Source: Bacteroidota bacterium (GTDB lineage: Bacteria > Bacteroidota > Bacteroidia > UKL13-3). Taken from it: a stretch of 46,204 nt of DNA. The notes under the pieces were generated by a model. It was not told the DNA's origin and made no database searches. It saw only the letters and a list, made by a program, of their open reading frames with translations. The position numbers were made by a program, and so were the translations under genes. The stretch spans positions 1 to 46,204 of the forward strand of contig CANGPW010000015.1 in assembly GCA_947456185.1 (NCBI GenBank). The letters run 5' to 3'. Below, piece after piece: positions 21,984-29,009 of the stretch; position 1 is the stretch's first letter, and the number at the start of each line of letters is the position of its first letter.

Positions 21984-24509
21984 ATGATGCAAAGTGTAAT
22001 GTACGCAATACCCTTGTTGGGTGTAGTTGGCCTAATAGTAATGGCCGTTAAAAGTGCTTGGGTTAACAAGCAAGACGCAGGTGATAAAAACATGCAAGAA
22101 TTGGCAGGATATATAGCCGATGGAGCCATGGCATTTTTAAAAGCCGAATGGAAAGTATTAAGTATTTTTGTAGTTTTTGCTGCAGCTTTATTGGCTTATT
22201 CAGGAACTATTCATGAAGTAAATGGTAAAGAAATTCACGGAAGTTGGATTATCTCTATTGCATTTATTATAGGTGCAGTATTCTCGGCTACTGCTGGTTA
22301 TATTGGAATGAAAGTAGCTACTAAAGCAAATGTTAGAACTACACAAGCTGCTCGTACAAGTTTAAAGCAAGCTTTAAAAGTTTCGTTTACTGGTGGAACT
22401 GTTATGGGTTTAGGTGTAGCTGGTTTAGCCATTTTAGGATTAGGTGGTTTATTCATTGTGTTCCTAAATATTTTTGCTGACTTAGGAACTAATACTGTTA
22501 AAACTGCTATTGAAGTATTAACAGGATTTTCTTTAGGAGCTGAATCTATTGCTTTATTTGCCCGTGTTGGTGGTGGTATTTATACCAAAGCTGCTGACGT
22601 TGGAGCTGATTTAGTAGGAAAAGTAGAAGCTGGAATCCCTGAAGATGACGTTAGAAATCCTGCTACCATTGCTGATAATGTTGGTGACAACGTAGGTGAC
22701 GTGGCTGGTATGGGAGCCGATTTATTTGGTTCGTACGTGGCAACTATTTTAGCTACCATGGTTTTGGGTCAAGAAGTGGTTGTTCAAGATAATTTTGGTG
22801 GCATGTCGCCAATATTATTACCCATGGTAATTTGTGGATTAGGCATTTTATTTTCAATAGTTGGAACTTGGTTCGTTACTATTAAAGATGACAAGTCGAA
22901 TGTTCAAAATGCTTTAAATTTAGGAAATTGGGCTTCCATGGCTTTAACTGTTGTGGCTTCTTATTTTATAGTAAACTGGATGTTACCTGAAGGAGTAATT
23001 TCATTACGTGGTATTGAATTTACTAAAAATGGTGTATTTGGTGCTATTTTAGTAGGAACTGCAGTGGGTGCAATTATGAGTATAGTTACTGAATATTACA
23101 CTGCAATGGGCAAAGCTCCTGTATTGTCAATTATTAGACAATCAGCAACTGGTCATGCTACAAATATCATTGGTGGTTTATCAGTTGGAATGAAATCAAC
23201 CGTTATTCCAATATTGACTTTAGCTGCTGGTATTATGGGTTCATATTATTGTGCAGGTTTATATGGTGTAGCAATTGCTGCTGCAGGTATGATGGCAACT
23301 ACTGCTATGCAATTAGCCATTGATGCTTTTGGTCCTATTGCTGATAACGCAGGTGGAATTGCCGAAATGAGTCAATTACCTCCTGAAGTTCGTGAACGTA
23401 CCGATAATTTGGATGCAGTAGGAAATACTACTGCAGCAACTGGAAAAGGATTTGCTATTGCTTCGGCAGCATTAACTTCATTGGCATTATTTGCCGCATT
23501 TGTTGGTATTGCTGGTATTGATGCCATCAATATTTATAAAGCAAATGTATTAGCTGGTTTATTTGTTGGTGCAATGATTCCATTTATATTTTCAGCATTA
23601 TGTATTCAAGCAGTTGGAAAAGCAGCCATGGATATGGTTCAAGAAGTTCGCAGACAATTCCGCGAAATTCCAGGAATTATGGAATATAAAGCTAAGCCAG
23701 AATATGAAAAATGTGTGGCTATTTCAACGGAAGCATCTATCAGAGAAATGATGTTGCCTGGTGCAATTGCTTTAATAACTCCAATTATTGTTGGTTTCAC
23801 TTTTGGCCCTGAAGTATTAGGTGGTTTATTAGCTGGTGTTACTGTAAGTGGTGTGTTGATGGGAATTTTCCAAAGTAACGCAGGAGGAGCATGGGATAAT
23901 GCTAAGAAATCATTCGAAAAAGGTGTAGAAATCAATGGTGAAATGTTCTATAAAAAATCAGAGCCACATAAAGCTTCAGTTACAGGCGATACAGTAGGTG
24001 ATCCTTTCAAAGATACTTCGGGTCCTTCTATGAATATTTTGATCAAATTAATGTCAATTGTTTCCTTAGTAATTGCTCCTTATATAGCTGTTCAAGGTGG
24101 TTTAACTGACCCTGCTGGAATGGTAAATGGTGCAAAAACTGAATGCTGCGCAATGGATTCAATGGATATGAATCATTGTGAAATGATGGGTAATTGCGAT
24201 ATGAGCAAATGCATGGAAATGACTAAAGAAGAGTGTGCTGCTTATTGCGATAGCATGAAATGTACTCCAGCACAAAAAGACATGTGCCAAAGCATGTATG
24301 GTGCCGATGGAAAATTTGATATGGCTAAATGCAAATCAATGTGCAAAGCTGAAATGGAAAGTGATTGCATGGAAGCTTGCGAAAAAGGTTGTAAAACTGA
24401 AGAAGAGTGCATGAAAAGTTGTGGCGATGCTTGCGTTACTTCACACAAAGAAGCTAAGGCTTGTTGTGCTGAAGGTGAAAAAGAAAGTCATAGCATAGAC
24501 AAAAAATAA
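21984..24509 (+). CDS. hppA: Membrane-bound ion-pumping pyrophosphatase with Cys/Met-rich C-terminal tail
   Basis: mPPases couple hydrolysis of pyrophosphate to H+ and/or Na+ export through 16 membrane helices. The core (about 1-718) shows the pyrophosphate-site motif [11 protein letters not shown] with [21 protein letters not shown], and later the second acidic site [19 protein letters not shown] carries Ala rather than Lys, which marks the K+-dependent subfamily; whether it pumps H+, Na+ or both cannot be read securely. The last core helix is near [13 protein letters not shown]. Residues 719-841 (bases 24138-24506) are an added 123-residue tail with 19 Cys and 16 Met, many as CxxxC. Since both termini of mPPases face the periplasm, the tail should too. 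It is a single-gene unit ending in a terminator. Confidence 0.95.
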
Positions 24510-28298: not shown

Positions 28299-29009
28299 TT
28301 AAACAGTAGCGTGTGAAATTCTTTCTAACGCTTCTTTATTTATTATTTTTATTCTTTTTCCTTCAAAGTCAATATACTTATCAGATTTAAACTCTGAAAG
28401 CAATCTAATTAAAGTTTCAGTAGCCGTTCCAACTATATTAGCCAAATCTTCGCGAGGCAAACTAATAGGAATAACTGGCTCCTCCTCTACCGATTTGGTA
28501 GCAAAAGTTTGATGTAAATATAAAATAGTTTCTGCTACTCTTTCTCTTACACTTTTTTGAGCTAAACTTTGCACTTTTTCATTGTTTAAACCCATATCGT
28601 GGCAAAGAGCTTTAAACATTTGTTTATTTATTTCAGCATTGCTTTGCAGTAAATCCAAGAAAACTTGGCGTGGAATAAAACAAGCAGTTACATCGTCAAT
28701 ACAAGTAGCAGTAGCGGTTAAAGGCTCATCGGCTATAACGGCACGGTAACCTAAAAACTCACCATCTTTGGCAAAGCGCAGAATTTGCTCTTTTCCAAAA
28801 TTATTACTACGAGTAATTTTAACTATTCCTTTTGTGATACAATATATTCCAAGTGGCAAATTATCTTCGTAGAAAATTGCTTGTCCTTTTTTATAATGTC
28901 CACATGACTTACCAGTACTAACTGCATGTACTTCCTCAGGATTACAGAATTTCATAAATGAAATGGCTTTTGAGTCGCACATTTCGCATTCAAGCTTTAC
29001 TTTTTGCAT
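28299..29009 (-). CDS. Crp/Fnr-family transcriptional regulator with N-terminal cysteines
   Basis: This 236-residue regulator has a cyclic-nucleotide-binding-like beta-roll (about 38-130, YKKGQAIFYEDNLPLGIYCITKG), a long dimerisation helix and a C-terminal winged helix-turn-helix (LPREDLANIVGTATETLIRLLSEF). Four cysteines precede and enter the roll (Cys8, Cys11, Cys22, Cys36), recalling the Fe-S ligands of FNR, although FNR's fourth ligand lies elsewhere. In this phylum such CxxC regulators are common and their signal is usually unknown. A good promoter lies just upstream at 29039-29066 and a terminator follows, so it is a single-gene unit. Confidence 0.92.
   Translation of the reverse strand: MQKVKLECEMCDSKAISFMKFCNPEEVHAVSTGKSCGHYKKGQAIFYEDNLPLGIYCITKGIVKITRSNNFGKEQILRFAKDGEFLGYRAVIADEPLTATATCIDDVTACFIPRQVFLDLLQSNAEINKQMFKALCHDMGLNNEKVQSLAQKSVRERVAETILYLHQTFATKSVEEEPVIPISLPREDLANIVGTATETLIRLLSEFKSDKYIDFEGKRIKIINKEALERISHATV

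Follow-up and report, generated by a model that had tools for sequence, protein, structure and literature searches.

A cysteine-rich, presumably periplasmic module at an exchangeable C-terminal site of membrane pyrophosphatases in sampled Bacteroidia

Introduction

Membrane pyrophosphatases (mPPases) have mostly been treated as bare 16-helix pumps. Two described enzymes offer points of comparison for the protein considered here. In the accessible text of the relevant reports, the H+-PPase of Flavobacterium johnsoniae carries a glutamate at position 5.43 and none at 6.53 or 6.57 (PMC6882861, PMC10897367); these Glu 5.43 signatures of the F. johnsoniae-type, K+-dependent H+-PPase are common to our HppA, a comparison that concerns the core only. 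The mPPase of Paucibacter sp. KCTC 42545, together with some relatives, has an OmpA-like C-terminal domain (PMC11210485). The likeness lies in an add-on domain placed after the last helix, and OmpA versions are also found here in Bacteroidia. The Paucibacter enzyme differs in that it comes from another bacterial group, is predicted to be K+-insensitive, carries another domain and, in the accessible part of that report, is described with no Cys module (PMC11210485).

For the tail itself, the copper-storage proteins Csp1 and Csp3 share many Cys and helical CXXXC pairs, and such pairs are present in the tail; in the available text of the source, Csp proteins are free-standing four-helix bundles that form tetramers (PMC5171941), whereas the tail is modelled as short helices fused to a pump. 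Metallothioneins are comparable in their very high Cys content and their few large hydrophobic residues. Most are free-standing proteins with abundant CxC and CxxC, whereas CxxC is all but absent from the module-bearing tails. The twin CX3C hairpins of small Tim proteins and the like bear CX3C pairs on helices, as does the tail, but the tail has no sequence match to them and odd Cys counts are common among the module-bearing tails.

Here we analyse an HppA protein with a Cys- and Met-rich C-terminal extension, encoded within a 46,204-nucleotide stretch of Bacteroidota DNA that is referred to as a whole as the window.

Results

The hppA gene (21984..24509, + strand) encodes a membrane pyrophosphatase of 841 amino acids with a C-terminal Cys/Met-rich extension (PF03030, E 4e-267; NF001955, E 0). 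The PF03030 profile aligned over its full length (1-645 of 645) and the catalytic motifs are present, placing the protein among the membrane pyrophosphatases. The Pfam H_PPase match marks the pump core (residues 14-697; 22023..24074, + strand), and the best NCBIfam model stops at residue 718. The protein bears the signatures of the Glu-5.43 H+-PPase subclass, with Glu187 (22542..22544, + strand) at position 5.43, no Glu at 6.53 or 6.57 and the ten-residue signature motif, where the numbering was mapped by motif in our own alignment. It also has the Ala of the GNTTA motif, a marker of K+ dependence. Judged by these sequence signatures, the window HppA is a K+-dependent, H+-pumping mPPase.

Searches for soluble PPases of families I and II found neither in the window genome (94% complete), and the pump may therefore be its main PPase. 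Family I enzymes were present in 12 of the 34 genomes searched (4 of these 12 in the window's genus) and family II in 0 of 34, so the pump is not always the sole PPase. Elsewhere in the window, reading by eye showed a Crp/Fnr-like regulator (28299..29009, − strand) whose N-terminus contains Cys, in CEMC and at further positions.

At the C-terminal end of HppA the last active-site motif, 14 residues long (residues 668-681; 23985..24026, + strand), is followed by a single hydrophobic helix, the last transmembrane helix with a short exit (residues 682-706; 24027..24101, + strand; hydropathy peak 685-703), and then by a Cys- and Met-rich tail of 135 residues (707-841; 24102..24506, + strand). The preliminary description had counted 19 Cys and 16 Met by hand in residues 719-841, and the count holds; residues 713-841 contain 19 Cys and 17 Met, the extra residue being Met713. 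By comparison, the core (residues 1-712) has 4 Cys, and the 29 other window ORFs entered (12,820 aa) average 1.03% Cys, with at most 8 Cys in any 129-residue stretch. Several elements can be distinguished within the tail, all encoded on the + strand. A Met/Cys-rich lead-in (residues 721-737; 24144..24194), mostly predicted to be disordered, precedes module A (residues 738-768; 24195..24287), a 31-residue motif with the spacing C-x4-C-x7-C-x3-C-x4-C-x7-C. Further along are a CKSMC pair in a predicted helix (residues 783-787; 24330..24344), module B (residues 795-817; 24366..24434), with the spacing C-x3-C-x3-C-x5-C-x3-C-x3-C, and a terminal CysCys pair (residues 827-828; 24462..24467).

The repeated CxxxC spacing noticed at the outset was borne out by shuffling (6 in the window tail versus 2.6 expected, p about 0.02). 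Across 123 distinct module-bearing tails, the count of CxxxC is 346 where 193 would be expected, and that of CxxC is one against 192; a separate, earlier count of C-x4-C gave 273 against 189. The shuffles keep composition and ignore the relatedness of the tails, which exaggerates these contrasts, although relatedness has little bearing on the near-absence of CxxC. Chance composition was rejected as the source of the Cys spacing. Large hydrophobic residues are few in the module-bearing tails.

Module A is the best-conserved part of the tail. Six columns, E749, C751, C755, D756, C760 and C768, do not vary among 20 aligned Cys-rich tails. A loose seed (Thr or Ser, an acidic residue, Ala and one Cys) recovered 136 copies, of which 127 kept all five other Cys offsets, five lacked the second Cys only and four departed otherwise. 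An earlier set of 63 distinct copies were all 31 residues long, where the constant length is weak evidence because the search pattern itself fixed most spacings and three Cys. In that set six copies lack the second Cys, and in five of them, from about three lineages, it is the only Cys lost. In the tails of L294 and L295 it is replaced by Met, and ten Flavobacterium tails (L296, L297, L304-L311; genus g70, taken as Flavobacterium) have a shortened module A without it. The motif can be read as two half-repeats of CDxxxC-x7-C, and several tails carry module A in tandem, with a spacing of 45 or 46 residues in some. At positions 2 and 8 of the module, Met was exchanged only for Leu, Ile, Trp or Phe across the 63 copies, so the two best-conserved Met look like hydrophobic positions and not obvious metal ligands. 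Met as a demonstrated metal ligand within module A was rejected on this substitution pattern.

We next consider predicted structure. For the window tail AlphaFold2 gave short helices with disordered ends (pLDDT 70, pTM 0.46); module A is predicted confidently as a block of pLDDT 88-93, and the pairs C751/C755 and C783/C787 sit in predicted helices. The four-helix bundle that the preliminary description had suggested looking for did not appear in this model, which also found no fold match in the PDB. A fold search of the PDB with the window-tail and Flavobacterium tail models reached no match at E 0.001 or better, from which little can be concluded because the confidence of both models is moderate. 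By sequence, the window tail had one PDB match, at E 0.64. Many Flavobacterium tails (e.g. L212, L214 and L233) continue after module A with a piece of roughly 45 residues, predicted as strand-strand-strand-helix in the L212 model; it had no Pfam match in the one tail scanned and no convincing PDB match. In the Flavobacterium tail model, the N-terminal end and an inner stretch are predicted to be disordered.

Profile searches against Pfam were likewise negative. Nothing significant was found for the window tail, the best hit being DUF6664 (E 0.09, under its cut-off), and it had no match to YceI, OmpA or FKBP. Among 29 tails scanned there was no metal-binding family and no twin-CX3C family; the best of the weak hits was DpdA (E 0.019, one of the 29), and another was Notch LNR, a disulfide-bonded domain (E 0.094, one tail). 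The Csp family, which has a Pfam model, matched neither the window tail nor any of those 29, even with E values up to 1 allowed. With no match to the family, Csp membership is unsupported and was rejected.

A further possibility is that the tail is an error of assembly or sequencing, for instance a frameshift that opens a false reading frame. HppA was found in 57 of 58 related genomes searched. HppA is present in 34 genomes of the same family, counting the window's own (G000-G033), and its tail has at least eight Cys in 30 of them; the remaining four are G020 (5 Cys in 57 residues), G022 and G031 (short and Cys-free) and G008, in which the frame is broken. Nothing in the window points to an artefact, and the one observation of that kind, an in-frame TAG inside the HppA match, belongs to the same-genus draft G008 (contig C117, L005). 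Genomes of the same genus and of the same family encode the tail in an open frame that can be aligned, as do named strains, including Flavobacterium silvisoli and F. palustre. The frameshift explanation is refuted by these relatives and was rejected; an artefact is almost certainly not the origin of the tail. When the window HppA was set against seven related pumps, dN/dS was 0.08-0.27 in the tail and 0.02-0.06 in the core, and the tail kept 114 of 117 Cys cells (97%), 103 of 110 Met and 455 of 580 others. By these sequence comparisons the Cys/Met-rich tail is a real module under purifying selection, less constrained than the core. The possibility raised at the outset that the tail is disordered and absent from close relatives stood only for disorder at its ends: module A is predicted with confidence, and most same-family relatives have the Cys-rich tail.

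A profile of the tail alone, the search suggested in the preliminary description, was run over genomes and recovered relatives fused to HppA. Across the class it matched in 57 of 395 genomes, 21 of 196 genera and twelve family codes. The match lies on HppA in all 57 genomes, 53 by sequence and four (G085, G096, G163 and G296) by position, beside an HppA core and in an equally long frame. The matching frames are 787-906 residues long, the size of a tailed HppA, except in four genomes with short frames (G053, G121, G345 and G257), where the module still adjoins the HppA end; one extra match, in G356, reads through stops. In a draw across the phylum, 16 of 395 genomes matched, namely the window and 15 of genus g70, and all 16 matches are HppA ends by sequence. 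Among named genomes, 353 stretches encode relatives. Examination of the best 80 of these 353 showed fusion to HppA in every case (80 of 80), with many of the 80 in Flavobacterium. Viral contigs gave no pattern match with the window tail, and the 29 pattern matches to the module alignment A3 include none that encodes a relative. Plasmid records searched with the tail had no match. Within the sequences searched, the Cys module is exclusive to HppA. Three HppA proteins of Bacteroidota type come from records titled Rhizobium, Bifidobacterium and Nitrotoga (L189, L193 and L201), probably mislabelled genome bins.

Other pumps carry other domains at the same place. Pfam identified YceI in seven tails (E 5e-19 to 2e-45), OmpA in two (E 4e-16 and 2e-23) and FKBP_N with FKBP_C in one (G061; L124, L263; E 2e-21 and 6e-26). 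Typing of 151 distinct tails with local profiles, for which the Pfam matches served as seeds, gave 55 with module A, 25 otherwise Cys-rich, 31 with YceI, eight with OmpA, one with FKBP, two with another domain and 29 short; these tails and the 103 cores placed on a tree come from chosen genomes, window kin or top scorers, and not from a random draw. Tail type, under six labels, needs at least 32 changes on this quick tree of chosen cores, which has no bootstrap and in which 26 of 100 inner branches are under 80% support. Branches with at least 95% support force nine changes for module A, eight for YceI and four for OmpA. Of the 104 rows that passed the core filter, L005 was dropped for its broken frame, L255, L056 and L043 were relabelled by eye, and a long-branch warning applies to L053, L055, L045, L033 and L038. 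In sampled Bacteroidia, different domains have in the course of evolution been fitted into the same C-terminal slot of mPPases. On one HppA (L289, G257 contig C152), read by eye, a variant of module A is directly followed by YceI, and such stacking is a possible route by which one filling could replace another.

Other arrangements were noted in passing. L265 resembles the FKBP-tailed HppA by pattern, and its near relatives L264 and L266 are short-tailed. L146 and L147 have Cys-free tails of about 100 residues, that of L147 without a Pfam match, which points to yet another domain in this slot. A short Cys-bearing segment stands ahead of YceI in L096, L104, L106-L108, L110 and L112, and a similar Cys-free one in L089-L091 (all by eye).

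This turnover bears on whether the tail does anything at all. Frequent loss and replacement on the tree, the predicted disorder of its ends, the commonness of short tails in related pumps (29 of the 151 fetched) and a dN/dS above that of the core would fit a weakly constrained, low-complexity extension that is tolerated, often replaced and without specific role. Such an extension sits poorly with the low dN/dS itself and the retention of Cys, or with the kept Cys offsets of module A, its tandem copies and its matches over twelve family codes, and we consider it very unlikely. At the other extreme, pumps with a YceI tail have cores 92-93% identical to that of the window, and near-identical cores without the Cys tail indicate that it is not essential to pumping; an essential role in pumping was rejected on this ground.

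On which side of the membrane does the tail lie? The mPPase active site is cytoplasmic in known structures, and a single helix separates its last motif from the tail, which places the tail outside. OmpA and YceI, envelope domains elsewhere, agree with this when found at the same site. A simple hydropathy count recovered 13 of the 16 expected helices, so the side was deduced from the position of the catalytic motif before the last helix. The tail is presumably periplasmic, given mPPase topology and the types of domain at the site; the earlier placement of the tail on the membrane face opposite the active site is supported by this motif-helix-tail order and by OmpA, YceI and FKBP at the same position.

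Pump type was compared among loci L001-L057. Tails with at least six Cys are found on 35 of 46 pumps of the E5.43 (H+-PPase-like) type and on 0 of 8 of the other type, after removal of the duplicate window row (L001/L002), with L005 counted as without and L014 and L034 absent for want of a motif match. In the named-genome scan 72 of 72 readable loci are of the E5.43 type, but these loci had been picked for the module. The two pump types fall on two sides of the tree, so the 35/46 versus 0/8 contrast may reflect one event and is weak evidence of a link. In an alternative reading the tail is a regulatory sensor, in which metal loading or thiol oxidation shifts pump conformation and thereby PPi hydrolysis or proton pumping; the restriction of the module to HppA in all surveys, and of tails with at least six Cys to the E5.43 type in this one comparison, speaks for such a sensor. 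Near-identical cores with other tails, the YceI-tailed ones among them, the wide spread of tail length and Cys number and the division of pump types between two sides of the tree speak against it, and we judge a sensor unlikely.

Discussion

The reading that best fits the tail, to which we give a probability of about one half, is a membrane-anchored thiolate metal-binding module for Cu(I) or Zn, as suggested by Cys content, spacing and conservation. In this proposal a periplasm-facing module rich in thiolates and thioethers would bind several ions of a soft metal, Cu(I) being the likeliest and Zn(II) the alternative. Module A would be the folded unit, and the flexible Met/Cys lead-in might act as a loading arm. 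The main role of the pump, present in abundance in the inner membrane, would be to anchor the module there and display it beside the proton-release site. A precedent for the chemistry is Csp3, in which, in the available text, CXXXC pairs on a single helix bind Cu(I) (PMC5171941). The scarcity of large hydrophobic residues in the tails also speaks for metal.

In its main rival, the tail is a small periplasmic domain held by disulfides, akin to a twin-CX3C hairpin, that makes protein contacts or anchors the envelope and binds no metal. The short CxxxC helices and the spacing of module B resemble disulfide hairpins, and OmpA and FKBP, which occupy the same slot, are contact or anchoring domains elsewhere. 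Moreover, disulfide attachment of Bacteroidota outer-membrane proteins is reported in the available text of one paper (PMC12635249), so the tail thiols may be oxidised. Against a fixed set of disulfides, Cys parity in the 123 distinct tails is random (64 odd, 59 even, among tails that are related and not independent), lone Cys losses in module A leave a partner unpaired, Cys number varies from 7 to 29 over module-bearing tails, and no Pfam twin-CX3C family was detected in the 29 tails. The near-even parity and the lone losses of the second Cys are easier to reconcile with metal ligands than with a fixed set of disulfides, and we regard the disulfide domain as the strongest of the alternatives and nevertheless doubtful.

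Several observations weigh against the metal-binding module. The tail has no match among metal-binding families or solved structures, and inspection of the window ORFs by eye brought out no copper-handling gene. The periplasm is also a place where disulfides form. Nothing obliges a general metal buffer to stay with a single pump, but HppA is the only protein on which the module was found. The conserved Met of module A look hydrophobic, and the ten shortened modules lack the second Cys. With these points included, the explanation as a whole, a K+-dependent H+-PPase with an exchangeable periplasmic C-terminal slot that is filled here by a metal-binding Cys module using the pump as its anchor, has in our estimate marginally less than an even chance of being right.

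Part of the architecture is already known. An OmpA-like C-terminus on an mPPase has been described, and the Cys-module and YceI versions were not found in the literature searched. The preliminary description had stated that no mPPase with such a domain was known; this stands for a Cys-rich domain, but an added C-terminal domain as such is in print, in the accessible text on the Paucibacter enzyme (PMC11210485). The literature on mPPases with a Cys module or a YceI C-terminus was searched mostly outside subscription papers, and none was found.

A broader picture is conceivable, though we consider it improbable: the socket may be general in Bacteroidota H+-mPPases, with the pump-exclusive Cys unit coupling the periplasmic metal or redox state to PPi-driven pumping, OmpA linking the pump to the cell wall, YceI to lipid or quinone carriers and FKBP to folding.

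Looking forward, the Cys module is short and occurs in named Flavobacterium strains, which makes metal content and tail deletion directly testable. If the C-terminal slot has repeatedly been refilled with envelope modules, one of them exclusive to the pump, then these mPPases would have a periplasmic side that is invisible to work on tail-less and plant enzymes.
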